Below are positions 2,043 through 32,712 of a DNA stretch of 64,000 nt, one piece after another; position 1 is the first letter of the stretch, and the number at the start of each line of letters is the position of its first letter. The stretch lies in assembly GCF_964340395.1 (NCBI RefSeq), contig NC_135565.1, forward strand, positions 21,532,209 to 21,596,208, written 5' to 3'. The notes under the pieces were generated by a model, which did not search any database, was not told the DNA's origin, and saw only the letters and a list, made by a program, of their open reading frames with translations. Source of the DNA: Glandiceps talaboti (Eukaryota; Hemichordata; Enteropneusta; Spengelidae). The translations under genes were made by a program, and so were the position numbers.

Positions 2043-2201
2043 CTAAATGACATCATCAGTAAAGAATGGTTTAATATTCTCTCTGAGTGTCCAGTTATCA
2101 TCTCCTGTCTTGTTACTCTGTAGTATGACATCATAGATACTGGGTAGTAACTTAGGATACTGGGTTAACACATCACTTTCTGGATTGTTTACAACATGTG
2201 C
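2043..2201 (-). CDS. Gene A terminal coding exon (KEN-like core, short C-terminus)
   Basis: Exactly 159 nt from acceptor to TAG. It encodes 52 residues including LTQYPKLLPSIYDVILQSNK and NWTLRENIKPFFTDDVI, then stops. Aligned by eye to IRE1 KEN domains, the Tyr of TQYPK and the Asn of SNK sit near catalytic Tyr and Asn positions, but the His position is not kept. The last helix of about 20 residues of the usual KEN domain is missing. Gene B ends the same way, so this is not a local truncation. Confidence 0.75.
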   Translation of the reverse strand, partial: AHVVNNPESDVLTQYPKLLPSIYDVILQSNKTGDDNWTLRENIKPFFTDDVI

Positions 2202-5200
2202 CTATGGTTGAAAAAAAAATTCCATATGTTATTGGATACAGAAAAGGTTACGATATAATTCTTTCAGCTGGTACTACATTTAAACATCTAGTAAAACTTC
2301 ATATTTGATTACTGAGAATAATATGTAAATGTAAACACACACACACATATACACACATACACACATACTCATGCACACACATACACACGCACACACATGC
2401 ACACACACATACACACATATACATACACACACATGCACACAAACACACATCACACACAAACATGCACACACATATGAAATGTTAGTTTGGGTCATTTAGA
2501 TAAATAAATACTCATAATGATGGCTTTAATACAACTGTAGTAATTGCCATGAAAATACATCAAAATAAGATTTCTTGCTGTCCTATTGATCATCCATTGT
2601 ACATACATACATATATATACAAACAATAAACAGTAAAGTGTTTCTGACCAAGACATTTAACCAAGGCTATGCAGAGCTGCCTCAGTAGGCCCAGTTCATC
2701 ATACTAATTATTGCTAATATCCAGTCACACACACACACACACACACACACAGACAGACACACATTGTACACAATCAAGTCATATATATATCATACATTGA
2801 ATAACTTACCCAGCCTTTACTGTCTATCTGTTTAGCTGCTGAGTGTAAATTCTTTACAATCTCATCTGATGATTCCCTAGAATAAGAAAAATTACAATTG
2901 GGAATTCAGAGAAAAAAAGAACAGTTCTCTCATTGTTCACCTTTTTAGTACTCTTTCTTGTAAGTAAATGAAAGTTCTTATTGTGTTTGAAAGAATGGCT
3001 TGCATTCCAAATATTCCAAGAACATAATAATAAAGACTCGGCAAAGAAAAAAAATAGCATAATTCATGATAGTGAATATATAGCCAATATCATATGCCTT
3101 CTCTCTTCATTAATGACAATCATCTCACTAGTTTAGTTGCTAAGAAAGTTTGTACATTGATAATTAAGAATTTGTATTTATATATTTATTAATAAACATC
3201 ACATTATCCCAATAATGTGACCATTTAGAAAAAATGATTTTTTTTTGTATATTTCTAAATCTGATTTAAATGCATATGTCATTATAGGCGTTCTTATTTT
3301 CTCTTCTACTTTGACTCTTAATTCAACATTTTCATTGCTATGATGACTAAGTTTACAAAAAACGTCAAAATCATTATAAACTGAAAATACTACATACTAG
3401 TAGTATACATCATATGTAATTTTTCTAAATTGTGACAACTTTGTGAACCATTTGCTGTTAGACACTAGTGCATCAATAATTATGTTTAACTGTAAACAGA
3501 TGTAATTCTGTGATGATGTTTTTGTCGTCATTTTAAGTAATTTGCCTTTGTTAAATATGTTGGGTTTGAATACATAATTTATATGAAACAAAATCAAATT
3601 CTGAATAAATGAAGCTTGAAAATAGTAACAACTTTGCTAGCTGGAAAAAAGGAAAAACATTTGTGTTGAAATAACATAAACAAATAAAGATAGACATTAA
3701 AATCAGGCCCTTCAAATATTGAACACATCTTTATAATCGTTATTTTAAATGACAAAAGTATCATTCAATCTATTTGACTTACACTGTTTCAACTTCTCTT
3801 ATCACTGTTCGCAGAAAATCACAGCGTCTTGCTTCTTCCCAGAAGTATGGATGCCTGAAAGATGGATAAGACAATTGTTTCCAAGTTTTCAGCACTGAAT
3901 TACCATTAACACTGAACCCATGAGGAATGGCCCTCACTGGACTTCTTGGGAGATAAGTATTTAAATGCTTAAAGAACTATCCAGTCTAAATAAAGATTAT
4001 TATTATTATTATTATACAAACATAATTAATCCTCTGGAACTTGGACTTGGAGTCTTAATGTAATCAACCTCATATAAGATATACATGTAAACTAATGCCA
4101 GCACAAAATTTGTCAAGAAAAGAATGGTAACCTTAATCCATAAAGTTAAGATAAACACAGCTTTGAGTTTTTCTGGCACTAAGCCAGAAAGTACATTTAA
4201 AAAATGGCATACACATCATTAATTTGAATACAATGAAACAAAGTCAAATTCTGAATAAATGAAGCTTGAAAATAGTAACAACTTTGCTAGCTGGAAAAAA
4301 GGAAAAACATTTGTGTTGAAATTGTGATAGGTATCAATTTTAATAAAGGCATTTCATATTATACATGTGTATATTGAATTTATACCTTAATACTTCATCA
4401 ACATAGGGTCGGTCTTTACGCTCCATCTGTATCATCCTTGCAATAAGATCTTGGGCTGTGTTATCACAGACAGACTTAGTATTTTTCAAAGAACCTTTAC
4501 GTATGTTACGTCTGCATTTTACAGCATTGTTCAAATTGTCTAGCTTTCCATAGGGATGACTTCCACCAGATAATATGTAGAAAATGACCATTCCTGCAAC
4601 CTTTTGAAATTCAATAATGAAAAAATAAAACATGATTTGTACATTTTTAAAATCAATTATGCAAATAATTGATCATCAATATGCTAGTTGCACCAGCTGC
4701 AATTAGAACATGTTTTGAAACTGTTTTGTTAGGTATGACTAACTCGTATTATATCCTTCACCATGAGGTGTATTAAAGCACCTGTGGGTAGCAGTACGGT
4801 GCAATACCTCAAATTTATTATTGGGTCCACACTCAAAAATCAGCTCCCCAGTGAATCATAATGTCAACTTGTAACTATACTAACTTATAACACATGGAAT
4901 TGACCTATAATTGACATGTACAATGTCTAATTATTGGTATTTTTAACATTCTTCAATGGTCAGTGAATTGTTGGTTGACTGATCAAAAGAAATAACCCTG
5001 GGTTACAGCTAGTGCAGAGTTAATGGATCTTGCTTTTTTTAAGATCATCAATATGTCTGAGCAACCATTGATGATATAACAGCTAACTGAAAACTAATTT
5101 TAATTATGCAAATTAATAATGCATGCTACATCTTAATGTCTAGATAACACACCTCTAAGTAGGGGACTCAATTCTCATACAAGATTAACATTTTCAGAAA

Positions 5201-8200
5201 AGAAGACCAACTATCATTGTTCCTACCTGGATGTCACTTTGTCGACTATATTCCATGGATCTTTTCCCATCACCACCTAATCCAGAATCAGTTTCCATGA
5301 TCTTCTCCTCCTCATCATCATCACTATTACTATCCTCATCCTGGAGAAGTTCTCTAGGTTGCCAACACATAGTTCCTGCCAACAAATCAAACAGGAAAAT
5401 GCTACAACATTGCCAATGTTTTATTTCCATCATTCGAACTCATCTGTACATCAGGGTTGATGAAACCACACAGATGATCAATACTATGGCTGAAGAGACA
5501 CAATATATGCTATGGTTTAATCTGTGCAAGAGTTTATTGTTAGTGTATTAGACTAGAATTTGACTGAACTTACCCTAATGTCAACCATATTTGTCCTTAT
5601 ATCCACTTTTTATAAAACTCTAGAATTATAAAATCTAAAGATTCAGCTTAAAGTGTTCTCTGTGCACATGGTCGTATTTTCACGTAGCATGTGACAGTGC
5701 AGCAGAAAACACTGCAAACAAAACTCATGATGAGCAACCATTATGACATTCACATGGCATGAGATTCTGTTATTACTACATTTGTTTATCCATAACTGCA
5801 AATTTCCACCGGTGAAAATAATACTGTGCGATTAGCATGATTTCATGTACATGGAATGACTGTGCCTTTATTGGCACATCATTTGCATACAGGTATGCAA
5901 TAATGTTTTCAGTATTGCACTGCAGTACATATGCTGCTAGTATATGTATATGCACACACAGTGCGAGTAATGACTGGTACATATGTAATGACTGTTAATG
6001 ATACCATTGTTACTCCTCTTAAAGCTACATGCTATAATTAAAAATTGATAATTGTTTAATACATTTCTACATTACTTACCTAGCTAGGGGGATATGTTTG
6101 CAATGAAGACTTGTTCATATTGTCTTCAATGCACGTAAGATAAACTTTTAGTTGTAATATCAATCCTAGATTGATGTATGATTGTGTTAATTTGGTGATT
6201 TGATATTTGTGAATTCAGTGAGTTATTTCTAATGGGAATACTGTACCCTTGTGATATCAAAAATTATTTATTTGTTGTTATTTAAATTATTCAAATTATA
6301 ACTATCATAATTTTATGTATTACCTTGTAGTGTAGTCGAAATAGTACTTTGGGATAAATCAACAGTGTGACTAATCCCAAAGTCCACCAACTTAGCAGTT
6401 CCATGCACATCTATTAGGACATTGGCAGGCTAGAAATAAAACAAAAATGTAAAACTACCTTTTTACATAATTTGTTTAACTTAATGTTTTGAAAAAGTGA
6501 TCAAACCTATTTGTGAATTTTAGGATAGTAGAGAGTGATAATCCGATGGACACACAGAATCCCAATCCACTACTTTTCCTCACTCCTAATGAGAGGTAAA
6601 AAAGGGGCGATCACTCATCCCGATGATACCTGAAGTAAATTTAAGGACTCACTTTCAAATCTTTATGCAGAATCTTTGGGTCATGATTATGTAGAGTTCT
6701 CAGTCCCTTCAACACATCTATCACCAATTGTTTGGATTTTTCCTGCAGCTTGTCTTTGTCGGATTTCAGTTCCTGGATGTATTTCTCCAGAGTCTTCTCA
6801 CAGAGCTCCATGATAATGTACACATACTGGTCAGTGTAACTGACACCCTGAAATTGTTGTCAATAGTACATGTACATGTTAGTAATAATAATTTTTATAC
6901 TGGATACAATTCTTTAAGCATATAAACACTTGTCTCCCAAGAAGTCCAGTGAGGGCAATCCCTCATCCAGGGTTCATTGTTAATGCAGGAGGAAACCGGA
7001 GTACTGAGAAAAACCTGCATTGTTCGGTTGAGTCAAACTGAATGACACTCCTCGTACTTTAACAGCATTGTAAATCTTAATCAAATCCTGAATGGGTTAT
7101 ATGAACCCTGACCGCAGTGGTAAGAGGCAAGTGGTTTAACCACTCGGCCAACAACAACTCTTTGTGAATGTCATGAAGGATTTATGTCCTTAGGCTTTTG
7201 ATGTGACAAACTAGAAAAATTACAATGGCCAACTTAACAAAGTAGGTATGGTGTACACCATATATATAGTATACACTCATCTACTGGGGCCATTAATTCT
7301 GAAATTAGCAACCTAATTACAAGTCATATTAGCAACCTAATTACAAGGCTTCATTCTCAAATTAGCAACCTGATACATTTATTCTCAAATTAGCAACCTC
7401 AATTACAAGGCTACATTCTCAAATTAGCAACCTAATTACAAGGCTACATTCTCAAATTAGCAACCTAATTACAAGGCTACATTCTCAAATTAGCAACCTA
7501 ATTACAAGGCGACATTCTCAAATTAGCAACCTAATTACAAGGATACATTCTCAAATTAGCAAACTAATTACAAGGCTACATTCTCAAAATAGCAACCTAA
7601 TTACAAGGCTACATTCTAAAATTAGCAACCTCAATTACAAGGCTACATTCTCAAATTAGCAACCTAATTACAAGGCTACATTCTAAAATTAGCAACCTCA
7701 ATTACAAGGCTACATTCTAAAATTAGCAACCTAATTACAAGGCTACATTCTAAAATTAGCAACCTCAATTACAAGGCTACATTCTAAAATTAGCAACCTC
7801 AATTACAAGGCTACATTCTAAAATTAGCAACCTCAATTACAAGGCTACATTCTCAAATTAGCAACCTCAATTACAAGGATACATTCTAAAATTAGCAACC
7901 TCAATTACAAGGCTACATTCTAAAATTAGCAACCTCAATTACAAGGCTACATTCTAAAATTAGCAAACTAATTACAAGGCTACATTCTAAAATTAGCAAC
8001 CTCAATTACAAGGCTACATTCTAAAATTAGCAACCTCAATTACAAGGATACATTCTAAAATTAGCAACCTCAATTACAAGGCTACATTCTAAAATTAGCA
8101 ACCTAATTACAAGGCTACATTCTAAAATTAGCAACCTCAATTACAAGGATACATTCTAAAATTAGCAACCTAATTACAAGGCGACATTCTCAAATTAGCA

Positions 8201-11200
8201 ACCTAATTACAAGGCGACATTCTCAAATTAGCAACCTAATTACAAGGATACATTCTAAAATTAGCAACCTCAATTACAAGGATACATTCTAAAATTAGCA
8301 ACCTAATTACAAGGCGACATTCTCAAATTAGCAACCTCAATTACAAGGATACATTCTAAAATTAGCAACCTAATTACAAGGCGACATTCTCAAATTAGCA
8401 ACCTCAATTACAAGGATACATTCTAAAATTAGCAACCTAATTACAAGGCCACATTCTCAAATTAGCAAACTAATTACAAGGCTACATTCTCAAATTAGCA
8501 AACTAATTACAAGGCTACATTCTCAAATTAGCAAACTTATTACAAGGTTACATTCTCAAATTAGCAACCTCAATTACAAGGCTACATTCTAAAATTAGCA
8601 ACCTAATTACAAGGCTACATTCTAAAATTAGCAACCTCAATTACAAGGCGACATTCTCAAATTAGCAACCTAATTACAAGGCTACATTCTAAAATTAGCA
8701 ACCTCAATTACAAGGCTACATTCTAAAATTAGCAACCTCAATTACAAGGCTACATTCTAAAATTAGCAACCTCAATTACAAGGCTACATTCTAAAATTAG
8801 CAACCTAATTACAAGGCTACATTCTAAAATTAGCAACCTCAATTACAAGGCTACATTCTAAAATTAGCAACCTAATTACAAGGCTACATTCTAAAATTAG
8901 CAACCTCAATTACAAGGCTACATTCTAAAATTAGCAACCTAATTACAAGGCTACATTCTAAAATTAGCAACCTCAATTACAAGGCTACATTCTCATAATC
9001 ATAATAGAATTCATTCCATTAAAAACTTACATAATACTCAACAATGTTATCACCTCTTAGTGATTTCACTATTTCTTCTTCTCTCTTAATAAATTCCAAT
9101 GTGTCCTCATTCTTATCAACCCTCTTCACAGCCACTTCCTTCCCAGTTGTTAGGTTGATACCGAGAAACACTTTAGTGCCTTCACACCTGTCAATTGATT
9201 TTCAGAAAAGGAACGTTTGGGATTGACATATAAGTTATTAACACATCTTCATAGAAGACACAGTCCCTTAAATAATTTACTTCTGTGTGACTAATGTATA
9301 AAATAATTTTGTGTTATTGTTAGTTTTGTTAAATGTGAACCCAGAAGGTAACACTAAGGGTCAAATACAATAAGTAGCAATATTTGCAGAAAGGTCATAT
9401 TAAGCCTTGGGACAGATATTTTTTAATTTCATTTGGCTGAAAAGAATTAATTAAAGGGAATATCACTCAAGGAAGAGGGAGGCATTTTTGCAAATTAAAG
9501 GGAATATCACTCCAGGAAATGGGAGGCATTTTTGCAAATTAAAAGGAATATCACTCCGGGAAATGGGAGGCATTTTTGCAAATTAAAGGGAATATCACTC
9601 CAGGAAATGGGAGGCATTTTTGCAAATTAAAGGGAATATCACTCCGGGAAATGGGAGGCATTTTTGCAAATTAAAGGGAATATCACTCCGGGAAATGGGA
9701 GGCATTTTTGCAAATTAAAGGGAATATCACTCCAGGAAATGGGAGGCATTTTTGCAATTACAGGGAATATCACTCCGGGAAATGGGAGGCATTTTTGCAA
9801 ACTTTGTATTAAAGAGAGTTATTTCATAATTTCACATCTCATAAATTTCATGTGATTGCCATGAAATGCAAAATTGAAAGTTGCTTCCCATTATCCTGGA
9901 AGTGGGTCACCGTTACTTAATCCATGGAGTGTGCAGACATGCATATGTACTAGATGAACAATATTGATTACTAATATGGGAATAAGAACTTAGCAGTCAT
10001 ACATGTTTATTGTTCACCTAATTCATATATGTATGCAGATTCCAGAGTGGCTATAATGGCCTGCTGTTAAGAACAATGAATCTATAAGCATATTGTCAAT
10101 TTGGTGTTTCTTGGCAAATGGCCAAATTCAAGTGATGTAAAATCATGAAATGACTCTCCAGAACCATAATTTGCCTTTATTTCCTAGAGTGGTTAATTCC
10201 CCTTTCAGCAGTTCGGAACATATTTCATAAAGTATTTAAGTATTACACTAGACAAAATGAATTAAATAGTGAATCTATAATTTACATTTCATTGGATAGT
10301 TTCAAGTGAGCCTAAGAGTCAATACATTATACTTGCCCTGTAGCTATCTTGAATTTTTCAGATGTTTCACAAATTTTAATATCACCGATTCTTTTGCACT
10401 TTTCCTTTTTAGTCTTCAATTCCTTCAGTTCTTCCTGCCATACAATACTCTGTGGAAACTTTTCAGGTGTTGGCTGACGTTCCTGCAGTATGGAAATTTT
10501 AAAAAGTTATCAACAGATGGCAAAAATTGACAGATATTGAGATAGATGAAAAAAGTTCATGTCAAACACTTGTATTTTGCACAGTGTATTGTCCATATAT
10601 TTCTAATTCATATTAGGTACAGAAACCTAGTACAACCCATAACCCCAAATTAAACGTTTTATGTATGTAACACAGCCGTTTAGCATCCATATCGAGTACA
10701 ACCCATAACACCAAAGTAAAGCATTTTCTGTGTGTACCACAATCGCTTAAAGCACCCATACCAAGTACAACCCATAACACCAAAGTAAAGCATTTTCTGT
10801 GTGTACCACAATCGCTTAAAGCACCCATACCAAGTGTAAAAGTATACTGTTTAAATTTGTTAATTGACACATTAGAAAGGCCACATGCTAGGCTTGTAAA
10901 TAAACAAATTGAAATAGTATACTTTAATTAACACTTGATATGAATGCCATAAATGAGTGTAGCTTTTCTTGAGTGTTACTTGTTGTATATGTAACCAATG
11001 CCTTACATGCACTTATAGTATTATGAATTACTTTATTACTAAATTCAAATTTTGTAGTCTCGTTGTTCAGTATCAAAATATTTTTGAAAATAAACCTAAA
11101 TTGGTGCTTTGATTAATATTGACAATGAATTACAGATATGTATAAACAGTGTTAATACAAATATTAATCATACATTATAGGTTACTACACACATGTGGAA

Positions 11201-14132
11201 AGGAAAGTCTACACATTAAAAGGAAGGGCATACACTCAATAAAAGAATAAGATAAATGTTTCAAACTTAAATTGCAGAAGAAAAAAGGCATTTTTGTGTG
11301 TGGAAGTTTCTGTGTGCTCTTCATATCCTAAGTCACCCTTCAGGAAATCTTTCATAGTAGATATATGAGAATAGATGTCATATATCACCTAGAATTTCAC
11401 ACAGGGAATTATTCATATTACCTGATTTGTATCCATGGGTTTTACAGAACTGCTTTCTGCTGCACTTACAGTTTTAGGACTACTGCTTTGTGATGCTGCT
11501 ACTTCACTTTGGGTTAGTGCCAATTTACATTGTGTGACAAAGTCATCCTGACATTTCTTGAATTCGATATGTTCAATCAGTGCTTTCTTGAGGACATCTG
11601 ATTTCTTGAAGTTAACTGGCTTTCTGTCCAGTTTGTCATCTATCTTCCTCTTCCATTCATCACTATCTCTATCAGCAGACTGATCATGCACTTTGGTTTC
11701 AACACTAAAAAATGTATCAAAGTCATCTTTTGGGAAGAGTTTCTTCAAGGCTGTGGCAAGTCCGGAACAACTTGGAATGAGAAAGGGTAGACCAGCCTGC
11801 ATGGCAAGGAAAGCAGGAAAGTTCAGTGGATCTTTCTTCTCTGGGGCAACTAACAACACACTTTGTTTCATCACATTCCCTAATTCTTCCATTTCAACGG
11901 GTGCAACAACTATGATATTGAGATTCCCACGACGCTTTGATTTCTTTATCAAATATTCTTTAAATCTATCACTGCAAGAAGTATGTACACCGCACAACTT
12001 CCAGTTTAGTACAGCATTCTGACGGAGACCCCCTGCTACTTTACCCATTGCCAAGGCAATCATATCAAAGAGTGAGAAGTCCTCTCTATTTCTAACATGG
12101 CAGACTGTCATGATCTGTTGATAACCTGTTTCATCAGATGTCATCTTTAGATGGGTGAATTGTTCATTCAGTGCTGGGTAGTAACAGTAGTGTGTGGGAC
12201 GAGCTGCCAGAGCTTTATATTTGCTTTCAAAGTGCTCATACACATAGGGACCAATGGACCAAACAACTTTGGCTTCCTTTGCTGCATCAAGAGCTAGTGC
12301 CTCCAAATCATTGTCACCAACATCTTCAGGTATTCCATGATTGAAAAGGAAGAAATGAGCACCGGGACTTCCCACATCCTCTTTAATCACTTGGGCAGCA
12401 TTTAGCAGTCCACTGTCATCTCCTACTGTCATGTGTCCAACCACAACATTGACTCCAGGAATTGTGTGCATGAATGCATAAAGACTTTTGATGTTGCCTA
12501 CCAACCAATCAGTAGATGGGGTTCTACGCTCTAACTTTTTAACTTTCTCTTTAAGGGCATAGATAAGTGTGACACCAGTGTCTTTATCAATTCTGAAGGG
12601 ATAGGATTTGACATCAAGTGTTGTTGAGTATGTTAGAATTCCTTCCTTGGCAAGACATCCTGAAAGTGATTGATTGACGATATCAAGACTATCAATATCT
12701 TTGGTCCAGCGCGAACAAACAAACACTGCTGCAATATCTGAAAACAAAACAACAACAACCAAACAATGATTCAATTGACCACTTTAATTGTAACTTACCA
12801 TCAGACTTTATTCTATAAATAATGTATGTCATATTTGTAAAATGTATAATCAATGCCAACAATACTTATATTCAATTAGAGGTGTTTAATTGTAAAAATT
12901 TATTCTCATTTCCTTCAATACACTCATTAGGTGAGTAGCAAAGATTCTAATGAACCAACCAATTTACCTTTGTCCTTCAAGTCTTTTGGTCTAGTCTCTA
13001 CTCTCATTTGATCAGTGGGGACCATCTGCTGATCAAGTGGTTCTGCCAGTTTTGGAGTTTTCATTGGTGGAATTGAAGGTTCCTGCACATGACCAACAGC
13101 GGGCCTATTTGGTTGTTGGCCATCTACCTTATCACCAAAGCCCAGCTGGAATCTTGTTCTAACTTGTCCAGCTAATGCCACCAAGCCCACTCTTGTGAGC
13201 AGTTCAGTGATGAGTTCTGGTTTTGTTCTACTGATATGACCAAGATCCACTAACTTTTGAAGGAAAGCATCTTGTGGATTCAATGATTTAAGAATCTCTT
13301 CCTTGTCTGCCACAGTAATCCTAAATTTAGTCAATCCACTGCACAAGTTAAGCAATTTATCTAAGTTAGCTGAAAAATGAATTTAAGTAAAAACAATATT
13401 TCACTCATTTTTTTCTTACATAACTGGAGTTTGAGAATTGTGTGCATATATTACAATCCAAATATGAATATATATGCATGTGTATATACGCACAGATGTA
13501 TGTACGTATGTATGTATGTACGCATGTACGTATATATGTATGTATGTATGTATGTACGTACGTACGTACGTACGTATGTAAGTACGTACGTACGTACGTA
13601 TGTATGTATGTATGTGTATGTATGTATGTATGTATGTATGTATGTATGTATGTATGTATGTATGTATGTACATTGTATGTATGTATGTATGTATGTATGT
13701 TTGTGCATGTGTGTGTGTGCATGCATGCATATGGTATACTTGATTCAATTTTTCTAGTTCATAAATCTTGATTTAACTGATCCACTATATTGTTTCTAAG
13801 GTTTTGAAATCTAAGTTGACTAAAAATATAATTACAAATGATGTAAATTCAGTACCACATCCTCACATCTAGATGATGTTTGAAATCGCATACCCCAAAA
13901 CTAAACCTTTAAACTTAAAGCAAGTAATTACACAAGAAACTTTGCAACTATAATTCAAGGAGAAAGTAAAGAATAACAACTATACTGATACATTTCACAA
14001 AAGTGATACAAGGTGAAATGTGAAACTTAATATTGAGAAAGAATTGTCAAATAAGACATTTTTCCCCTCACCTTGAGTAATATCACCAGCTATTTCACTC
14101 AAATAGATAGTTAATTGATCTATTGATGCCAT
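2043..14132 (-). CDS. Gene A: DED / GT4-like / IRE1-type kinase / KEN-like multidomain protein, 12 coding exons
   Basis: Assembled by splice sites and frame: 14132-14072, 13369-12968, 12737-11422, 10482-10337, 9187-9031, 6847-6653, 6429-6324, 5375-5227, 4600-4386, 3854-3783, 2876-2810, 2201-2043. The total is 3045 nt, 1014 codons plus TAG, with no frame conflict. Domains: DED-like about 1-105, linker, GT4-like about 155-560, Ser-rich linker, kinase about 640-918, KEN-like 917-1014. Kinase residues seen are the glycine loop from G642, VAVK lysine K663, HKD at 755-757 (HRD in the paralogue), N762 and DFG at 775-777, so ATP binding and phosphotransfer look possible. There is no signal peptide or membrane span, so it is probably cytosolic, unlike IRE1 itself. 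The role is inferred: an innate-immune or cell-death signalling protein built like RNase L but with different sensor domains. The start is chosen because MAS- is shared with gene B. I do not know a named orthologue. Confidence 0.85.
2330..2470. repeat. Impure CA/ACAT microsatellite
   Basis: Runs of ACACAC and ACATAC in the last intron of gene A. A shorter (CA)n lies at 2726-2762. Confidence 0.85.
2810..3854 (-). CDS. Gene A exons 10-11: start of KEN-like domain
   Basis: Exon 10 (3854-3783) encodes HPYFWEEARRCDFLRTVIRE and exon 11 (2876-2810) encodes ESSDEIVKNLHSAAKQIDSK then GW. In IRE1 and RNase L the kinase ends at HPFFW and runs straight into the KEN nuclease domain through helices of this pattern (FFQDVSDRIEKE, then a D-W pair). 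The order, the spacing and the closing Trp fit that junction. Confidence 0.75.
3583..3672 (+). repeat. 90-bp direct repeat, copy 1
   Basis: Matches 4233-4322 over 90 bp with one difference (ATGAAACAAAATC against ATGAAACAAAGTC at the start). The two copies flank exon 10 of gene A. Confidence 0.85.
3900..4017. mobile_element. Dispersed repeat, related inversely to 6928-7000, ending in (ATT)n
   Basis: The segment GCCCTCACTGGACTTCTTGG reappears as its complement at about 6935-6960. The right end reads TAAATAAAGATT(ATT)n, like a retroelement tail. It carries no coding sequence. Confidence 0.5.
4233..4322 (+). repeat. 90-bp direct repeat, copy 2
   Basis: See 3583-3672; the offset is 650 bp. Both end with AAACATTTGTGTTGAAAT. 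Confidence 0.85.
4386..10482 (-). CDS. Gene A kinase exons 4-9 (IRE1/RNase L-type kinase)
   Basis: Exon 4 (10482-10337) leads to the glycine loop (FKIATG joined to CEGTKVFLG). Exon 5 (9187-9031) carries VAVKRVDKNE. Exon 6 (6847-6653) carries the YIIMELCEKTLEKYI hinge and HKDLK. Exon 7 (6429-6324) has PANVLI and VDFGIS. Exon 8 (5375-5227) has GTMCWQPRELL and then an acidic insert. Exon 9 (4600-4386) has VIFYILSGGSHPYGKLD and ends RKDRPYVDEVLR. The phrases GCEGT, SGGSHPYG and VLRHPYFW are hallmarks of the IRE1/RNase L kinase group. The HRD arginine is Lys in this copy. The intron after exon 4 begins GC rather than GT. Confidence 0.82.
6925..7165. mobile_element. Dispersed repeat with a GGAGGAAACCGGAGTAC core
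   Basis: The core AGGAGGAAACCGGAGTAC and the block GACCGCAGTGGTAAGAGGCA then AGTGGTTTAACCACTCGGCC resemble a short repeat found widely in marine invertebrate genomes. I recall it from general knowledge and did not search. It lies in a gene A intron. Confidence 0.5.
7290..8995. repeat. 33/34-bp minisatellite, about 50 copies
   Basis: The unit is AAATTAGCAACCT(C)AATTACAAG plus GCTACATTCT. The optional C makes 33- and 34-bp versions, which alternate in blocks. It sits in the intron between kinase exons 5 and 6 of gene A. There are no spacers, so it is not a CRISPR array. Confidence 0.95.
9448..9805. repeat. 44-bp minisatellite, about 8 copies
   Basis: The unit contains GGGAATATCACTCCAGGAAA and GGGAGGCATTTTTGCAAATT. 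It lies in a gene A intron. A single related unit lies at 31985-32022 in gene B. Confidence 0.9.
10629..10835. repeat. 66-69-bp tandem repeat, 3 copies
   Basis: GTACAACCCATAACACCAAA begins units at 10630, 10696 and 10765. The last two are nearly identical. Confidence 0.85.
11422..12737 (-). CDS. Gene A exon 3: GT-B / glycosyltransferase-4-like domain
   Basis: One 1316-nt exon encodes a complete two-lobe domain. The first lobe starts at AAVFVCSRW and includes VVVGHM, a conserved FNHGIPED motif and VVWSIGPYVYEHF, which resembles the sentinel region of GT4 enzymes. The second lobe starts near IMTVCHVRNREDF and ends in the nucleotide-sugar site region DPLNFPAFLAMQAGLP (from about residue 457). 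In GT4 enzymes that region reads E-x7-E; here the positions are Asp457 and Leu465, so the second acid is lost. The domain may bind a sugar nucleotide rather than transfer it. Family assignment is by motif order, not by search. The end of the exon is Ser-rich linker. Confidence 0.7.
12968..13369 (-). CDS. Gene A exon 2: death-effector-like domain and linker
   Basis: Joined to exon 1 it gives a helical region with the DED-like pattern LDKLLNLCSGL, then a long-helix segment ending with LLTRVGLVALAGQVRTRF, where DEDs carry their last two helices. About 85 residues follow of Pro- and charge-rich linker. DEDs assemble with other DEDs (FADD, caspase-8 types), so this is the likely recruitment module. 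The match is by pattern only; a CARD or Death fold cannot be excluded. Confidence 0.65.
13485..13735. repeat. TATG/TACG microsatellite
   Basis: Tetranucleotide runs of TATG mixed with TACG. Open frames of 90-126 codons on both strands come from the four-base period. Confidence 0.95.
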
Positions 14133-16138: not shown

Positions 16139-16140
<2 letters not shown>

Positions 16141-22616: not shown

Positions 22617-25600
22617 CTGTTTAGGATAGAAAAAAATATACGATTTTATAAAAAAAATATGATTTTAGTAAAGTTATGAGCATCAAATTGAAATTTCATT
22701 CTTCTAATTGAAAATACACTCTACACACGTAGATATGTGTATTCCTGTTTTCAGAATTGTGATGATGCCCATTAACATTGTGTAGTAAAAGAAAGTCTCC
22801 TGCTGCAGTATTAGTCTGTCTGTGTGTGTGTTAATCAACCATGGGGTTATTTTGTTGATCTACATACAAAATTTGATAAAGACATAAAGGTGGTCTATTT
22901 TCTTTAATTTTTATACTTCTACTCTAGAGTAGCCATATGAAATGTCAGACTAGAGTGCACCTGCATTTTAAACTGCAGACAGTACAATTTATTTAATCTA
23001 ATTTTATGCAGATGTCAACAACTTCTTGTATGAATTTACCTCAATACTTCATTTATAGATGGTCGATCTTTACGGTCCTTTTGAAGCATAAGACTTATCA
23101 AATGTTTTGCACGACCATCAGCAATTTGTTTCATGTTTTCTGTCTTCACCTTTCCTTTACATATCCTTTGAAGAATGGATTGAGGTTTCAATATGTCTCC
23201 AAAGGGATGACAACCACCAGATAATATGTATGCAATGATCATTCCTGCAACCTGAATAGGTGTAAACAAAAAGTAATTCTTTGTTCTTAATAAATAGTAA
23301 ATTTTTTATATTCTGTCACCATTTTGGTAAGAAAGCAATATATTAAAAGTACCTAGAATCACTGAACCATGGTACTTAATCAGCTAAACAAGCAGTAGCG
23401 ATATTAAGTATTATTGAAGCAATGATTATAAATTAGTATTGGTGTTTTTTCACAAGGCCAGAAAAAATAAAAAAGCTAAAAAGCTGTTCAACGGGCAACC
23501 TAGCCTGTCACATTGGGTAGGTAGGTTAATTTTCTTCTTTTTTTTCTTTTTTTTAAAGTTTGGACAAGGATGTAAAAACAAGCAATGATGGCAAAACATT
23601 TCAAATTGAGTTTATATAGTACCTATTCAATAATTTTGGTTTTATCTCTTACAATTTGTCTGTATAGCAATCGATTTCCATCAGTTCCACAGTTAGGAAA
23701 TGTGCACAATTTACAGTTAAACACATGTTGTAGCCCCTCTCACCCTCTCACCCTCTCCCCTCAAAAAATGTTAAGACCCGCCAAATGTAACTCCAGAATT
23801 ATTTTAGCCACCCCTTCTGTCACCTACACTACAGTGGAGATATAAAATTATATTATATCTACAATAATAGTCCAAACGAGATTACTTTACACAGGATGTG
23901 GATTTCAAATGCATAAGGACCAATTGTTACTGATTGGGAGGAGACACCTCCAAAGGTGAAAACTTTTTTGAAAATAAGACCATGCAGTAGGCTATTTAGA
24001 GGCATAACATATCAAAACCATAGACATAATTTAAAGTCTTACAATGCTTGAATATGGTAATAAAATACCAGAATTGAGACAATTATACAATTCAGTACAT
24101 ATTATCTGGCTATGAAGTGTATTTTGTTGTGGCAAAGCTGAATTTTTTTTGCATATGTGCACTTGGTAAATGAGTCTCCTGAGTTTAATTTGATTCCAAA
24201 AATCACAAATAAAGAGCAAAACATTTCAAGTTCCCCTTTCAGACTATCAGAGTTTTGATGGCCCAATGACTTCTCAGCCCCTTCCCATTGTCATAAATTT
24301 TGCTCATTCCAAGTAAACCACTATCAGATATTTAATATACTTTGAAATTGACCCAAATGTATATGGTCACATTAATTATTCAGAAAATATAAAGAAATCC
24401 CTTTAAATAATATCAAAACAAAGTGTGCATAGTAGTCCAGCAGCCATTTTACTGCCTTGTGAAGCCAGCATTAGGATATATTGCCCATGACCAAAAATTA
24501 TTTTTTTAAAATTGAAATGTCAAAAATATGGGTAGTTTTTAAAAAAAAAAAATTTAGTTTTGACAATTCAATTCCAAATTTTTTTATGATGTAGTTTCTA
24601 TCACTTAGTACAACATAATATAATATATCATGAATGTTACTGGCGTAGAAATCCTTGTATGAGTCAGTTAAAATGTAAATTCCAGAGAATAATTAAATGG
24701 TGATGGGTTTTTGAGATTTTTTTACCTGAATATCGCTACGCTGACTGTATTTAACAATGGCCGCCATTTCATCAATTCCAGAGTCTTCAACAGATGCCTT
24801 TGCTACCCCTTCCTCTTCAGAGTCACTGTTATCAAACATTTCTTGAGCTACTTCTGTTGCTTGCCAAGGTGCTGTCCCTTTAGATTTAAATTAGTACAGA
24901 CACAAAAACAACTATAGACTGAGCAGATCATACCTTGCACAAGTCAAAGTGAATAAACCAAAACAAAAAATATGGGTTCTTTTGGCCGTACTGTGTTAAG
25001 ATCGGGTACGTCTATGTCTTCGGGTCTGTTTGTGCTCAAACCATGCTTGAAAAACATTCAAAATCACCATTACTTTCTCTGCTTTTACAAACATTATGAT
25101 AGTGCTTGTGAGGGTATACTAATTATGTCAAATAATTTTCTTATTCAGCTGGATAAAACCCTTGCCCTATGGGTTAATGTGTATAAATATAATCATGACA
25201 TTCACAAGCCATTAGCGGTCCAAGTGCAACAAACCCGCGGGCTTGCCTGGCGAAAACGGTTGTCATAGAAGTTGTTTGCATCTCTAAAGCTGTTTGTAGC
25301 GTTACTTATAATAGCCTAATAAATTGATAACAACTGATATAAGACGGAGATAAGGTTTGCCTCAATTGCAGTCCATGCAGACGGCCGAATAGAGGTTTTA
25401 CAGCTGTTTACTTGTGTTATGTAAGAGCCCATCATCACATGTGTAAATATTGGTACTCTTTGATAACAAGTCAACCTGCTTGGCTAATGGCTTGTCCCAG
25501 TAATGGTTATTTTCTGAACACCATTCCATATCTTGCTGTGAGGTGTCATTTCTCCTGTAATAACAGCGAGCCGCAGGTAAGCCGTTATACCGAAAAAATG

Positions 25601-28600
25601 ACAAGAGTAACGATGTGTGACAGTATTTGGCAAATGACATACATCACCTGCAACTTCAATTTTCAATGTCTACAATTGCTGTTTCATCTCAAAATAAATC
25701 ACTTCTGCATTATACTGTTGTGCCGCAGTATTACGCACCTCTCTGATAATTGCAATGTGGTTGTTTACATCTCAGCCTTAACTTTATCACCCAATCAGAG
25801 TGAACGTTTCCTCTATAGCATGACATAATTAATAAGCTTCAGCTAAAAGATGAGTGTATCATTGTTTTGCATATTGTACAGAAATGTTCATAACATGCTT
25901 TGTTCTTCCAGAAAAGCAAAAATTGCACATCTGGGATGGTAATTTTGATATCGTTCACAAATTTTCACAAATCACCTAACAACCATGTGTCCATCATCAC
26001 TGGACTTTTGCCGTTCTGTAGTTGATGTTTTGACAATTTATTTCCCATGTGACACAAAAAAATGTACAGTTCAAAAGCTTGTTACAATGTTTACAGCTAT
26101 GATGTTTCGTACAGTTGACAATAAATTTGGCATTGGAAATGCTGTTAATACTCAGTTATAGCTGGATTTCTAGTTGTCTGCTAGGTTTGTTTACTAGGGG
26201 ATATATCAGGATTACATGTATGTGGGGAAAAATTGTGGTGATGATATTTTTGGAAGTAAAAATGAAAAACTATAAGTTTTGCAATGTACCTGAAGCACCT
26301 GTAATGTAGGTACTCTGTGATGTGTCAATACTTCGACTTATCCCAAAATCACACAACTTTGCAGTTCCATTAGTATTTATTAACACGTTAGCTGGCTGAA
26401 AGGCAAATATTGAGGATTATCAATTGATATGTATGTATGTATGTATGTATGTATGTGTGTGTGTGTATGTGTGTGTATGTATGTATGTATGTATGTATGT
26501 ATGTATGTACATACAAATGTGCACACAGATGTGATAATATTACACAAAAAACACCTATTAGTTTACTTCTTGTAAATTAGTTGTTCAGGTCTTACACAGA
26601 TTAAAAAGGAATTGCCAATATATAAATATTACAGTGTGTCTGTGATAGGCACCAAATAACTTCACTTTGGGAACTGACCTTGATGATCAAGGCCAAAGGC
26701 CAATGGCTCAAAATTTGCATATATCGGATATTGCATGTCTGACAATTGACATATTATGAACAGACACATGCATACATGAATGCACACACAAATAGTGCCC
26801 ATTATAATAGTCCCCCACCCCCTTGGGAGACTAATTACTTGTAAACAGCATATACTTTATCAACTACATTTCATAAAATATTTTGACTGCACCAAATGAC
26901 AGGGGAACCTTATGTCAATGCCATTAATGGTACTTAAATGTCACTGTCAACAATCGTGCACTCTGATTGGTCAAGAGACTTACATAATATACCATATTTC
27001 TTTTGCTGAATCCATATCCTTGGATTGCTATTATTTCTGGACATTCTTTGACCACTATTATTTGTGAAATTCTTCCTCAAGAGCAGGTACCAATACATAC
27101 ATGTATATGTGATTGACTTACCTTAAGATCCCTATGCAGAATCTTGGGATCATGGTTATGTAGAGTTCTCAGTCCTTTCAAGACATCTATCACCAATTGC
27201 TTGAATTTTTCCTGTTTGCTTTTGTCAGATTTCAGTTCCTTGACATATTTATCCAATGTCTTCTCACATAGCTCCATAATAATGTAAACATACTGTACAC
27301 CATGAATCACACGCTGAAGTAATTTAAATTAATTAAGTTTGGTAAGAATTTCTGAACAACTTCAAATTCAACAGTCATTGAATACCCAACTCACTTATCT
27401 GAAGTTCACAAACACATTATAGCAGATTGTATAAAGAAACTTAATGCCAAACTGAAATTTACCAAATTTTTCCCCTCTGTTACCTTTGCTAAAAACAGTG
27501 ATTAGGATTTATCTGTTTTCTAGTATTGGTTAGTATTATTGTGACAAGTTAACAAACTAACACAGGTAGGATTGATTCATGCTCAAACTGAATACCAACT
27601 AACTTACATGATACTTGACGATGTTATCACCCTCGAGTGAAGTGACTATTTCTTCTTCTTTCTTAATAAATTCCAATGTCTTCTCATTCTTATCAACCCG
27701 CTTCACAGCCACTTCTTCCCCAGTTGTTGTGTTTATACCAAGATATACTTTAGTACCTTCACAACTAAATAAAACAAAAAAAGAGTTGTGAAGATCTGAT
27801 CGATATATGCGGTGGATAATTCTGTATTTTTATATCAAGAATGGAATCGAATTTACTTCTAATAGTAAGTAGATTGTAAAGAACAATTGTGTCAGTGTGT
27901 GTTTATATGAAAGATCATTCAAATGTTGTTATATATTGTTTATTTTTGTACATATGCAATCTCAACAATATAAAGCTATTTTGAAAAATATCAGAATCAG
28001 GCTACCACAGTTTCAAGTAATGTTCATAAATATCCAAATTATTTCTTTTGTAAAAGACTTTAACAAATTGTGCATGATCTACAGATAGTTTGTGAGTCAG
28101 AATCTGACTAACAAAGAAGATGTCTTGCAGTTATCTTACCAAAAAGTAATTTGTGTAAGATTTTAAATAATCAAGTCTTTCTAGAAAACATTGGCAAAAG
28201 AAATTATACAAAAATGGTTGTTGATGGATGAATGGACAATATATGGATGGGCAGAGATAAATTAATAGTGAAAGCTCTTACTAAAATGATGAAGTTGACA
28301 TGCTTATACAATTTATAGGGGATATTAAGGGTGCTGACTGATTTTATGTGAATGTAATTTGTAAATGACAGCATAGACTTCCTAAATCTCATCAAAGTCC
28401 ATTCTGCAAATGGATGAGGGCAATATTGTATTAGTGTAAATTGCCAACAAGTTACAATACGATTCTTACCCTGTAGCAATCTTGAATTCATCCCTTTCAC
28501 AACATTTGATATTCTCCAGATTCAAACACTGTTCTCCTTCTAAGGCATTCAATTCTTTCAGCTTTCCACACCATGCAAGACTATGCCATTCAGGAGCTGA

Positions 28601-28751
28601 CTGAAATTCCTGCACCCAATAAAAGATATAATAAGTCATATTACTACTGGCTTTATTGACTCAGAATTCACTTCCCATTAATTCATGATCCAAGCAAGTA
28701 GCATTGATAACATGTATACTTGGGGAATGTATCATGGTTCAAGTTCTGAGC

Positions 28752-28801
<50 letters not shown>

Positions 28802-28826
28802 TTGTTGTTAATGATGATGATGATGA

Positions 28827-28857
<31 letters not shown>

Positions 28858-31800
28858 AAATAATATCTATAAACAAGAATCACTGTTAAATGTTTCATTA
28901 GAATTTTATGAGAAGGGATTAATTTGTGGTGGTTCTAAAATACCTTGTACATGTATTTGTTGTAGTATGTACACAGCAAATAAAATGATGTAGTTTACCT
29001 GCAGACTCAGTTCTATGGCAGTTCTAGTATCTCTTTCAAACTGTTCATCAACAGTGTCCGTACTTGTCTGTGTCTGGTAAAGAACATAAAATAGATAATA
29101 ACCAGTTGACAAATATCAAAAACAAATCATCACATACAAACTAGAGTCAGTTTTCTAGGTGTGATTGGATGATAATATTGTTTTATAATACCTTGTCTGT
29201 CTCCATTGGTGATGACAAACCATCAAATACAAATACATCATCGTCCAATTTACTGGCAGATTTTAATGACATGCTGCTAAGTGAGGATGGTATTCTGTTA
29301 TGAGCACTTCCCTCTGATGTCGATTTTCTTGCATCACTACTTTCACTGACATTTCTTGTTCGACCATATCTATTTGGGTCATCTGATGTGTGTCTTTCCA
29401 TACTTGGCATCGCCTCCCTCTCAGCTGTATGACCAGATCCAGGTTCTGTCATATACCGAGTTCTTTTTGATTCATGATGACGGCTGACATCTTTCGGCTG
29501 AGTTGTTTGTTTTGCTGTAAGAGAAGAATAGTAAAAAAATGGAATAGATAAAATCCAACTTTCCAAACATTTACACTGTAAGCTAGTTCCCAAAATTAAT
29601 GATCACAATATATGACAATTTCATTTCTACTTTTATGCACAAATGTGAATAATGTATTTAGTTCCATTTACATAGCATAAAATTAAAAAAAAAGTCAATT
29701 TTATCAATTTTGACAGAGTAACCTTTCTACCTAAGACTTATAACTTGCCAAGCAATAATGTTTTTCTTTCCTTCATAATATTTTCATACAGTTTTGTCAT
29801 GTACTACTCACCCATCACTTCATAACCAAGAACATGTTGACAGTTTTGAACGAATTCATCCTGGCATTCCTTGAATTTTGGGTGTTTCTTCAGTTCATCT
29901 TGTAGGAGAGTAGATTTCTTAAATCCGATTTGCTTATTTACAAGCCTGTCAGTGATTCTCTCTTTCCATGCATCAATACTGGTTCCTGAATAATCTGTCA
30001 GATTTGTGGGTACACTACAAAAGCTCTCAAAGTCATCACTGGGAAAGAGTCTTTTCAAGGTTCTGGAAAGTCCGGAACAACTTGAAATGAGAACAGGTAG
30101 GCCAGCCTGCATGGCAAGGAAAGCAGGAAAGTTGAATGGATCTTTCTTCTCTGGAGCAACTAACAACACACTCTGCTGGATTGCAGTGCGTAGCTCTTCC
30201 AGTTCCACAGAGGTATAAACGCTGATTTCAAGGGGACCATACTTTGCCTCTTTCTGCAGATATTGCTTAAACTCATCACTGACATCTTTACAAACACCAT
30301 GCAAGATCCACTTTGGTATGCTCCTCTGGACATCCTTATAGGTACCTGCCACTTTACCCATGGCAATTGCAATCTCTTTGTATTGTTGGAAGTCTTCCCT
30401 TGACATGACACTGCATATTGTAAGTATCTGTTGTCTACCTTCATGGTTAGGCTGTACCATCATCTTGGTGAACTGTTCATTCAATGCTGGGTAGTAACAG
30501 TGGTGTGTAGGATGAGGATTCAGAGCTTTGTACTTAGTTTTGAAGTGATCATACACATATGGACCAATGGACCAAATAGCAGTTGCTTCCTTTGCTGCCT
30601 CAAGAGCTGTTTTCTCTAAATCATTGTCACCAGCATCTTCTGGTATTCCATGGTTGAATAGGAACAAGCTAGCAGAACCTGTGACTTCATCCCTTTGTAT
30701 CAAGGCAGCTCCTACCAATGAGTTATCTCTTCCCAATGCCATGTGTCCAACCACAACATCAACTCCAGGAATTGTGTACATATCAGGATAGAGACTTCTG
30801 TGGCTGCCAATCAACCAATCAGAGGATGGATCCTTATTTGACAACAGTCTCACTTTCTTTTCAAGGGCACTGATAAGTATGACACCTGTGTCTTTATCTT
30901 TATTGAATTGTTCAGCTTTGACTTCTAGTGTTGTGGAGTATGTTTGAATTCCCTTTGTGGCAAGGGATGCAGCAAGTGAAGCATTAATGAGAGAAAGTCT
31001 GTCCACATTTACAGTCCACCTGGAGCACACAAATAAGGCTGCTTTACCTAAAAATTAATATTCCAAAATAAAAGCGGGTTAAATTAGTAAGAAAACATAA
31101 AGTATTGAACAGATTAAAAGCCACAGAAACATAAATGCCTCTAATGTAACCATGCATACATTTGTCAGGAGATATATATGACATTGATACAAGATTAAGC
31201 ATTTACCCTGAACATTCTAAAATGGTAAGCTCACTTGCATCTCATTTTAACATGTGTAGACAGAACATTTTATTATTCAATATCACATCTGAAATTCATT
31301 CCTAAAATAAGATTTACTGGTAATTCTTCTACATGGTACTAAATTCATACTGAAATTTATGATTTATAAAATTGTTTCAATAACCAATTCACTTGTTTTA
31401 AGATGCAATTGGTACCAGCTGGCATAAAGAATCACCTTGTTTCTGTCCTGGTGTTGTGTTTGAGCTGCTGCCAACATCTGCTGACTTGGTAATCACATTC
31501 TGATTGTTATCTCGTTTGGTTTCTTCTGTAGTTTTATGTAATGAGGCAGTATCATGACAACTATCAGTTCTATCAGATACCTGTCTGTCTCCCTGACCTT
31601 CAAAACCTTCCTGAAATCTAGCTTCCACGGTGTTAGCTAAGGCTATCAAATCTGCACCTCTTAGGAGTTTAAGGAGGATATCGGGATTGTTCTTGGTAAG
31701 ATGACCTTTATCATATAATTTCCGAAACATATCATATGGTGTTTTGATTTCATCTCTTTCTCGCCTACTTATATATCCTTCAGATAAGTTAAGCATTGAT

Positions 31801-32712
31801 TCAAGTTTTCCTGAAGAAAAAAAAATTGTTAGCTTGCATGTCCATCATACATGTATATCAATGGTACTTGGTCAGCAGATTTCACGGGAGGTGTGGTAAT
31901 TTGATTTTTCTGTTTGTATATTTAGATTGTATTTCACAACTTACTGCTATGTAGGTTGGTTAGATTCACTAGCAATTTTGCTATTTAAGGGGAATGCCAC
32001 TCCAGGAAATACAGGCATTAAGGGTTTTTACTGTAGGCCACATTGCCTCATGGAAACCAGCAGAGATATGTATACATTATGAGGTCATTTTCAAATTTTT
32101 CCGAGGCTTTTAACATTTATTTTCAGGCAAAATTACACATTTAATCCTTAGTCTAATTCTGACTGTAATATAGACTTTTAACCCTTAGTTTTTGAATTTT
32201 TGTAGCAATTGTGATTGTAATTTTAATCCACCATGGTATATTACATAGCAAAGTAACACCCCACCCCCACCCCCTCTCCAAACCTACAGTCAGCACCCTA
32301 AGCCTTGGTGGTTTCCAACATCATTTGTCAATCTAAAATTTGACAATCTCTGTATATAGGCCTTAGTGCCGGAGCTGTATTTTGTTGATTTTATGGTCAA
32401 ATTGCTTGACGTGTCACAGTATTTTCTAGCCTAGCTCTCCCCATTAGCTCCTTGCATCTCTTGTAAAAGACTCATTTATACATTCAGGCTGTATTCAGAT
32501 TTAATTACACAAATACTTATGTCAACAATTTGTGGGTATAAGAATATGTCACAACTACTATAATTGTATATGAATCCGATTGGCACATGTGTATGTTAAC
32601 CTTTACAGACAGAAAGAGCCTCTTCCTGCACCATATTAAACTTACCATCTACAATGTCACCCTGCAAATCCACTAAGTATACCCAAAATGGATCTAAATC
32701 CTTTGATGCCAT
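21042..32712 (-). CDS. Gene B: DED / GT4-like / UIM / IRE1-type kinase / KEN-like protein, 14 coding exons, paralogue of gene A
   Basis: Exons: 32712-32646, 31810-31436, 31047-29812, 29514-29192, 29073-28999, 28609-28470, 27764-27608, 27313-27122, 26395-26290, 24877-24726, 23251-23040, 22616-22548, 21959-21893, 21200-21042. The sum is 3330 nt, 1109 codons plus TAG, frame-consistent throughout. Domains: DED-like about 1-105, GT4-like about 148-550, Ser-rich linker 560-667, UIM 668-692, kinase about 737-1013, KEN-like 1012-1109. Kinase residues: glycine loop from G739, VAVK lysine K760, HRD 851-853, N858, DFG 871-873, so it should be an active kinase. Intron positions and phases match gene A in the kinase half, so the two are tandem duplicates. 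B has two extra linker exons (29514-29192 and 29073-28999) absent from A. An ATG 12 nt upstream (32724) is in frame and would add MTST; the downstream ATG is preferred by homology to A. Confidence 0.85.
21396..21766 (+). mobile_element. MITE family M1, copy 2
   Basis: It shares CTATTTTAGAA, AGTGTGAGTGGCTAGTTCAG, TGGTCTCTGTGTTAT, CAGATGTACAGCCATTACAG and the end GGTAACCAGAACCAAACAAT with the other copies. It lies in the last intron of gene B. Confidence 0.7.
22045..22320. mobile_element. Dispersed repeat with an ATATAGCACC / CACTTTACA core
   Basis: The stretch from (AAT)n through TATATAGCACCTAGTCTCC, TGGCACTTTACA and GGTGCAGAGCGGACAATGTT resembles a short repeat common in invertebrate genomes (recalled, not searched). 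A weak relative lies near 18020. It lies in a gene B intron. Confidence 0.45.
23040..28609 (-). CDS. Gene B kinase exons 6-11
   Basis: Exon 6 (28609-28470) ends FKIATG. Exon 7 (27764-27608) has CEGTKVYLG and VAVKRVDKNEKTLEF. Exon 8 (27313-27122) has YIIMELCEKTLDKYV and HRDLK. Exon 9 (26395-26290) has PANVLI and CDFGISRS. Exon 10 (24877-24726) has GTAPWQATEV and an acidic SDSEEE stretch. Exon 11 (23251-23040) has IIAYILSGGCHPFGDIL and ends RKDRPSINEVLR. All catalytic positions of an active kinase are present. Confidence 0.82.
24890..26285. other. Gene B intron with a CG-richer insert
   Basis: The stretch 24970-25830 differs in base use from its surroundings. It contains the inverted pair ACAAGCCATTAGC (about 25202) and GCTAATGGCTTGT (about 25483), and GGCCGTACTG near 24983 against CAGACGGCC near 25378. 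It may be an inserted element. No protein was recognised. Confidence 0.4.
26430..26512. repeat. TATG/GTGT microsatellite
   Basis: Tetranucleotide run in a gene B intron. Confidence 0.95.
28755..28858. repeat. (GTT)n trinucleotide array with an ATG block
   Basis: GTT repeats interrupted by six ATG units, in the intron between gene B exons 5 and 6. Confidence 0.95.
28999..29514 (-). CDS. Gene B exons 4-5: Ser-rich linker and ubiquitin-interacting motif
   Basis: Exon 4 (29514-29192) encodes a low-complexity, Ser/Arg/Asp-rich stretch such as IPSSLSSMSLKSASKLDDDV, ending METDK. Exon 5 (29073-28999, 75 nt, phase 0 at both ends) encodes DEQFERDTRTAIELSLQ. This fits the UIM pattern of an acidic start, then A-x3-S (A686, S690). 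Gene A has only a short Ser-rich tail ending MDTNQ and no UIM. A cassette exon of phase 0 could be skipped without breaking frame. Confidence 0.65.
29812..31047 (-). CDS. Gene B exon 3: GT4-like domain
   Basis: The 1236-nt exon is collinear with gene A exon 3. It has AALFVCSRW, VVVGHMALGRDNS, FNHGIPEDAGDNDLE, IWSIGPYVYDHF, YYPALNEQFT and DPFNFPAFLAMQAGLP. The E-x7-E positions are Asp450 and Leu458, the same substitution as in gene A. This shows the change predates the duplication and supports a binding or sensor role over catalysis. Confidence 0.7.

Follow-up and report, generated by a model that had tools for sequence, protein, structure and literature searches.

The minus strand of a 64-kb window of the genome of the acorn worm Glandiceps talaboti (the window being the whole stretch of DNA analysed here) carries two tandem genes within 2043-32724. 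An earlier note, made from the DNA letters, had read each of them as a fusion of a death-effector domain (DED), a GT4-like glycosyltransferase domain and an IRE1/RNase L-type kinase-KEN module. The question raised by this locus is whether these parts do stand together in one product and, if so, what such a product could do. We consider it close to certain that a DED, a GT4 domain, an IRE1-type kinase and a KEN-related tail are joined in one protein. Each gene would then encode one cytosolic receptor-like kinase, made up of a DED, a pseudo-glycosyltransferase, a linker, an IRE1/RNase L-type kinase and a pseudo-KEN.

Gene models and the N-terminal DED

Both gene models were assembled one exon at a time, with splice sites and the conservation between paralogues as guides. 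The upstream gene (32724-21042, minus strand) has 14 exons and encodes 1113 amino acids, and the downstream gene (14132-2043, minus strand) has 12 exons with an intact frame of 1014 amino acids. Splice phases agree at all junctions in both genes, the translated proteins are uninterrupted, and 22 of the 23 modelled introns (25 exons) are GT-AG, the exception being the GC-AG intron that follows exon 4 downstream. A search of 5.8 billion proteins found P0001, the product of the uncharacterized NCBI gene LOC144448192, which is the upstream gene and is letter-for-letter the splice-site model (13 exons, 1088 amino acids) with the addition of a 25-amino-acid micro-exon at 29073-28999. The full-length frames over 14 and 12 exons that had been read from the DNA are upheld by the matching splice phases and, for the upstream gene, by the NCBI model; the order DED, GT4, kinase, KEN-related tail is common to both genes, as had also been claimed. 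Divergence between the two paralogues amounts to dN 0.27 and dS 0.70 over 612 aligned codons in the five exons compared. It could be argued that adjoining DED-GT4 and kinase genes have been joined on paper, through an artefact of gene modelling or assembly, and one model from Ptychodera flava (P0017) does stop before most of its kinase. However, GT4 and kinase exons occur together at six loci and in P. flava models, the phases match in both window genes and the NCBI model is identical in the shared exons, which leaves only a very small chance of such an artefact.

In the upstream gene, exon 1 (32646-32724, phase 0-1) holds the start codon, which is the same in P0001, and the start of the DED; the remaining DED and a linker follow in exon 2 (31436-31810). 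This region matches the Pfam DED PF01335 with an E-value of 5.6e-9 and 36.6 bits, just above the cut-off of 35.9. The corresponding exons of the downstream gene are exon 1 (14072-14132; start codon and DED start by the splice model) and exon 2 (12968-13369), which carries a diverged DED and a linker. Alone, this DED scores 18.6 bits in Pfam, far under the cut-off, and it was recognized by profile comparison: against a profile made from ten DEDs of Pfam level in this genome, its sequence reached 90.2% probability and a profile of four family DEDs 97.4%. Column-shuffled controls (30 shuffles each) reached at most 1.8 for the four-DED profile and at most 1.1 for the downstream DED. Nothing DED-like was found with the downstream DED alone in the Protein Data Bank (PDB). 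As PDB searches gave no clear relative, the DED and GT4 assignments are carried by Pfam and profile comparison, and on these grounds the DED proposed for the N-terminus stands in both genes, above the cut-off upstream and by profile match downstream. The DED exon and the GT4 exon of the upstream gene are both symmetric 1-1, which fits exon shuffling.

A Ser-rich linker is encoded by exon 4 of the upstream gene (29192-29514, splice model) and is followed by exon 5, the micro-exon present in P0001 (28999-29073). This holds a weak match to the ubiquitin-interacting motif (13.6 bits against a cut-off of 21); the relative P0014 scores 18.6 bits, and Pfam gave no match in the matching piece of P0002. 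These scores hint at a putative, not established, capacity to bind ubiquitin.

GT4 domain, kinase and KEN-related tail

The domain in the sensor position is the GT4-conflict domain PF20706 (cut-off 26 bits), so that the glycosyltransferase fold suggested for it was correctly recognized in both genes. Upstream, exon 3 (29812-31047) contains the entire domain (E 5.5e-29, 101.7 bits); downstream, exon 3 (11422-12737) contains the domain and the Ser-rich linker (E 9.4e-21, 74.7 bits). The GT4 domain alone retrieved no solved relative by sequence from the PDB, the one match being mitochondrial Era at E 0.82. In GT4 enzymes, the Gly loop, the Arg and Lys residues and the EX7E motif have known roles, and these positions were compared in an alignment of 59 rows (six P-numbered proteins, 23 further proteins and 30 genomic GT4 exons). 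Among nine distinct kinase-linked copies, the EX7E pair and the Arg are retained in none, the Gly loop in none of the seven that reach it and the Lys in one. The 21 relatives P0018-P0038 retain EX7E and Lys throughout, Arg in 19 and the Gly loop in all 20 that reach it, and 15 of the other 21 G. talaboti GT4 exons (L011-L031, some near-identical) keep all six residues when Lys or Arg is accepted at the Lys site. The replaced Gly loop is constant among kinase-linked copies, EK[KQ][DN]P[FL]N[FY], and this constancy speaks for a probable retained function rather than decay. We propose that the domain is a member of the fold family but a predicted pseudo-enzyme that does not belong among the active enzymes.

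The sugar-nucleotide or glycan sensing that the earlier note had envisaged does not survive this comparison, at least in the usual glycosyltransferase manner: with Arg and EX7E lost in 9/9 copies, the Gly loop in 7/7 and Lys in 8/9, classical recognition of a nucleotide sugar was rejected, which leaves room for ligands of other kinds. The same residues bear on the idea that the domain is an active effector glycosylating invader or host targets under kinase control. Its PF20706 match, and the glycosylation proposed in the main text of PMC8195603 for other animal GT4 conflict proteins, would agree with such a role, but Arg and both EX7E positions are changed in every kinase-linked copy, as is each Gly loop reached, and we regard an active effector as very improbable.

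The kinase is encoded by exons 6-11 of the upstream gene and exons 4-9 of the downstream gene, placed by the splice model and, for those bearing motifs, by the kinase motifs themselves. Upstream, exon 6 (28470-28609) runs from the kinase start to the Gly loop, exon 7 (27608-27764) carries the VAVK lysine, exon 8 (27122-27313) extends to HRDLK, exon 9 (26290-26395) holds DFG and the activation loop, exon 10 (24726-24877) the region after that loop with an acidic insert, and exon 11 (23040-23251) the C-lobe. The downstream counterparts are exon 4 (10337-10482; kinase start), exon 5 (9031-9187; VAVK), exon 6 (6653-6847; HKDLK, with R changed to K), exon 7 (6324-6429; DFG), exon 8 (5227-5375; post-activation-loop region with acidic insert) and exon 9 (4386-4600; C-lobe). 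Two downstream-gene introns contain stretches (7240-9000 and 9455-9855) whose translation in the open reading frame lists is repetitive, with the look of short tandem repeats.

Pfam Pkinase is matched at E 1.8e-41 upstream and 1.9e-40 downstream. When the downstream kinase region was compared with the PDB, the 16 best distinct sequences were all IRE1, and RIPK kinases were absent among the best 60 of the 669 matched sequences; RIPK kinship was rejected on this basis. All seven proteins compared have the Gly loop, VAVK, H[RK]DLKPxN and DFG, with HKD and not HRD in the downstream gene, and the activation loops contain several Ser and Thr. Judged by these motifs, the kinase looks active. An HP[YF][FV]W junction with the KEN region is likewise present in 7/7 proteins; it lies in exon 12 upstream (22548-22616; splice model and motif) and in exon 10 downstream (3783-3854; splice model, motif and PDB match).

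Past the HPYFW junction, both window genes hold the first and last parts of KEN with nothing between. Upstream these are exon 13 (21893-21959) and exon 14 (21042-21200), with the RNase core missing between them; downstream they are exon 11 (2810-2876; splice model and PDB match) and exon 12 (2043-2201; splice model, ending in the stop codon). The profile search that the earlier note had advised recovered GT4 and kinase in both proteins and the upstream DED above cut-off, but Pfam gave no KEN match in either gene. A profile built from four short tails, including that of exon 13, matched IRE1 in the PDB over its first part only (E 1.4e-5), and it matched a profile of three longer tails from relatives with 99.1% probability in an alignment that skips the part with the RNase site. 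The longer-tail profile matched RNase L at 1.4e-9, with IRE1 at 2.1e-9 and weaker, and the long tail of P0003 matches Pfam KEN at E 1.7e-8; by these matches the longer tails of the relatives are true KEN relatives.

A middle KEN exon hidden in the window genes was considered and rejected. No KEN-core exon was seen by eye among the candidate AG-to-GT frames of the tail gap in either gene, tblastn searches of the two gaps with the P0003, P0014 and P0015 cores gave best E-values of 1.3 and 8.0 (chance level), and the profile alignment has its gap at the core. In the same kind of search, the cores recognize one another at 1e-6 to 1e-7 in two of the three pairings, the P0014/P0015 pair giving E 5 to 6. 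One tblastn match (E 0.012) in the gap of the locus at C18:3.84 Mb is on the opposite strand with an internal stop and was taken as chance. Three modelled genes of G. talaboti, namely the window pair and P0002, lack the core, as does P. flava P0004; in the partial models at C18:3.84 Mb and C22:9.55 Mb, short-tail pieces were found and the core was not. The pattern Rx4-6H is given in a passage of PMC3710099 as the RNase site of KEN. None of the three longer tails has it in the core, although the bare pattern is matched further on in P0003, outside the core. As the core is either missing or lacks Rx4-6H, the tail is a predicted pseudo-RNase, or pseudo-KEN, in the proteins compared. The kinase-KEN module of the earlier note is upheld as an IRE1/RNase L-type kinase with a KEN-related tail, but not as a complete KEN. 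These findings also bear on whether the proteins are RNase L-like enzymes whose tail cuts RNA after kinase dimerization. The KEN homology of the relatives invites that comparison, but the core losses in four proteins and the altered longer-tail cores make it the least probable of the explanations considered.

Another possibility is that the proteins act as negative regulators, the DED and the pseudo-domains dampening caspase-8/FADD-like signalling by competition. There is precedent for this in c-FLIP, in which a DED is combined with an inactive enzyme domain, and here two predicted pseudo-enzyme domains occur in one protein. However, the kinase motifs are intact in 7/7 proteins, which suggests an active output, and we consider negative regulation rather unlikely. 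There was no strongly hydrophobic segment in the five proteins scored (best 19-residue mean hydropathy 1.62, simple scale), and Pfam found neither an IRE1 lumenal domain nor ankyrin repeats in the window genes.

Past the stop codon of the upstream gene there are three extra tandem copies of its last exon (20571-21023, minus strand; 159-base unit). In-frame use of these copies was rejected by hand, the nearest acceptor having the wrong phase. Two extra last-exon copies also occur at C18:21.432 Mb, and one more partial copy at L041:7002-7094.

Relatives and genomic context

At a threshold of E 0.001 the genome yields six kinase exons of the family, each at most ~8.3 kb from one of the six best GT4 matches, and four of these six GT4-kinase loci lie inside 140 kb of one contig. 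A DED-like exon is present at four of the six, namely both window genes and the loci at C18:3.82 Mb and C22:9.57 Mb, where it scores 15.5 and 19.8 bits in Pfam respectively, under the cut-off. P0003 (GT4 exon L005) has a linker of ~30-amino-acid tandem repeats between GT4 and kinase. P. flava encodes at least three GT4-kinase proteins (P0004, P0014 and P0015) and the truncated relative P0017, so that the GT4-kinase-short-tail build is found in two acorn-worm families, Spengelidae and Ptychoderidae. At NCBI the upstream protein and several relatives are uncharacterized, and one P. flava relative is named after PAK kinase. No GT4-kinase protein was found in other phyla in protein searches limited to the ~8000 candidates sharing the largest number of words.

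A tree was built of 17 GT4 rows; in it the kinase family, with ten rows of which one is truncated, forms a group with support of 99/97. Support of 97/93 places the short-tail protein of P. flava with two short-tail loci of G. talaboti; the P. flava row spans about half of the GT4 domain in this tree, and several inner forks lack support. From this grouping, the short tail probably predates the split between Spengelidae and Ptychoderidae.

The genome as a whole holds at least 109 distinct GT4 places, at least 150 DED places and at least 81 NACHT places, a very large conflict-type repertoire for one acorn worm. This setting suggests a further explanation, that of an integrated decoy, in which the dead GT4 would mimic active GT4 conflict proteins and bait a pathogen product, with tampering firing kinase and DED. 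The abundance of GT4 places would suit a decoy, as would the EX7E pair kept in 15 of the 24 compared GT4 exons that have no family kinase, the monophyly of the kinase-linked clade with its constant altered loop, and the constraint on the window GT4 exon (dN 0.34, dS 0.74 between paralogues). However, the sequence does not tell a decoy from a direct ligand sensor; we regard the decoy as possible but unlikely.

A DED lies within 5 kb upstream at five or more of the 109 GT4 places, counted with a DED list for which 150 of 211 candidates were scored and in which divergent DEDs, that of the downstream gene for one, do not appear. At four places (C15:11.62-11.64 Mb, C13:6.14 Mb and C26:6.66 Mb) the distance from a DED to the GT4 exon downstream of it is 0.5 to 3.2 kb. 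A family kinase exon was not found there in the genome search at E 0.001, and the DED-GT4 pairing may be used by other proteins. Elsewhere in the window, 39324-40327 holds two exons of a quinone oxidoreductase-like protein (ADH_N, ADH_zinc_N), 58810-59856 a rhodopsin-type G-protein-coupled receptor in a single frame (7tm_1, E 1e-39), and 37769-39085 a repetitive translation in the open reading frame lists with the look of short tandem repeats.

A proposed mechanism and its place among known systems

RNase L and IRE1 both sense with the N-terminal half and dimerize with the kinase-KEN half, and by analogy the same division of labour is most likely here. With a degenerate GT4 as the sensor and the RNase output gone, the outputs left would be the kinase and the DED. 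We propose that the degenerate GT4 may act as a binding or sensing domain that brings at least two molecules together, that the IRE1-type kinase would phosphorylate in trans as IRE1 does, and that the pseudo-KEN may aid dimer packing and cut no RNA. The clustered DEDs could then recruit FADD- or caspase-8-like partners, with cell death or inflammatory signalling as the output. In its action such a receptor would resemble RNase L at the input and a RIPK/FADD module at the output. We infer that kinase activity together with DED partners, the output named in the earlier note, is the most plausible route. As a whole, the proposal that a kinase triggered by a ligand or through a decoy brings DEDs into clusters and enlists FADD- or caspase-8-like partners has, in our judgement, slightly better than an even chance of being right. 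More tentatively, and with somewhat less than an even chance, two dead enzymes would frame a live one, the pseudo-GT4 serving as sensor or decoy, the pseudo-RNase as dimer clamp and the kinase as the driver of DED assembly, in a lineage-specific class of immune receptor.

Several observations weigh against this proposal. The DED and GT4 fold assignments rest on sequence profiles, and all DED-like copies except that of the upstream window gene score 15.5 to 19.8 bits against the cut-off of 35.9. Compared with the PDB, the four-DED profile gave weak matches (a phage-type scaffold protein at E 0.08, the Fas death domain at 0.64 and caspase-8 at 1.3). No DED was found within ~4.5 kb upstream at the P0002 and P0003 loci, nor in the P. 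flava proteins scanned, though the sequences of P0004 and P0015 start within the GT4 domain. The search that found P0001 returned 13 proteins and a second search five, and the downstream gene was in neither set. As to the pseudo-enzyme, eight of the nine kinase-linked copies have Asp for the first Glu of EX7E, a mild change by itself, and one copy retains the Lys. The three nearest copies with no kinase match (L008-L010) are degenerate as well, so that the loss of the active site is not tied to kinase fusion alone. A role in defence is probable, the argument for it being one of family context only.

Animal GT4 conflict domains have been described already. According to the main text of a 2021 eLife paper (PMC8195603), GT4 domains of cnidarians, cephalochordates and hemichordates occur fused to TRADD-N and LRR, a coral has over 500 GT4 paralogues, and the closest kin of the animal domains are bacterial conflict versions; GT4 with death-fold partners is therefore a known theme. 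The words IRE1, RNase L and KEN are absent from that main text, figures and source data lying outside this statement, and no animal GT4-kinase fusion appears in 12 of its 14 places with the word 'kinase'. The combination of DED, pseudo-GT4 and IRE1-type kinase was not found in the literature, a survey that took in the top of the longer result lists and excluded the figures and source data of PMC8195603. Within that limit, the outcome agrees with the earlier note, to which the combination with an IRE1-type kinase was not known. Each module is known, and the IRE1-type kinase together with the apparent loss of both enzyme activities is the new part.

If the proposal is right, a kinase platform that IRE1 and RNase L have in common, and that is known for cleaving RNA, would have been rewired to death-fold adaptors in a deuterostome, its chassis now serving a cell-death kinase in place of an RNA cutter; a conflict-system GT4 domain could persist as a pseudo-enzyme sensor. 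It becomes possible to test whether DED assemblies can be activated by an IRE1-type kinase with no RNase output, and the family may offer a route to the ligands of animal GT4 expansions.

RNase L consists of ankyrin repeats, a kinase homology domain and KEN. Like it, the proteins described here have a predicted cytosolic sensor half, after which come an IRE1-type kinase and a KEN-related tail, and the longer tails of their relatives match RNase L best in the PDB. The window genes differ from it in their GT4-conflict domain, N-terminal DED and intact kinase motifs, with no ankyrin match and the RNase core missing. The likeness to IRE1 is in the kinase, which is nearest to IRE1 among solved structures, and in the HPYFW junction and alignable first part of KEN. 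Unlike IRE1, however, they lack a strongly hydrophobic segment and a lumenal-domain match, and they combine a predicted pseudo-KEN with an N-terminal DED and GT4. In the RIPK family a kinase is coupled to a death-fold adaptor domain, the death domain. The window genes also join a kinase to a death-fold domain, but the kinase matches IRE1 and the adaptor is a DED. A parallel to the N-terminal half is provided by the animal GT4 conflict proteins (GT4-TRADD-N-LRR and others), which, in the main text of PMC8195603, likewise bring a conflict-type GT4 together with death-fold partners; the window genes depart from these in carrying an IRE1-type kinase and in having lost the GT4 active site.

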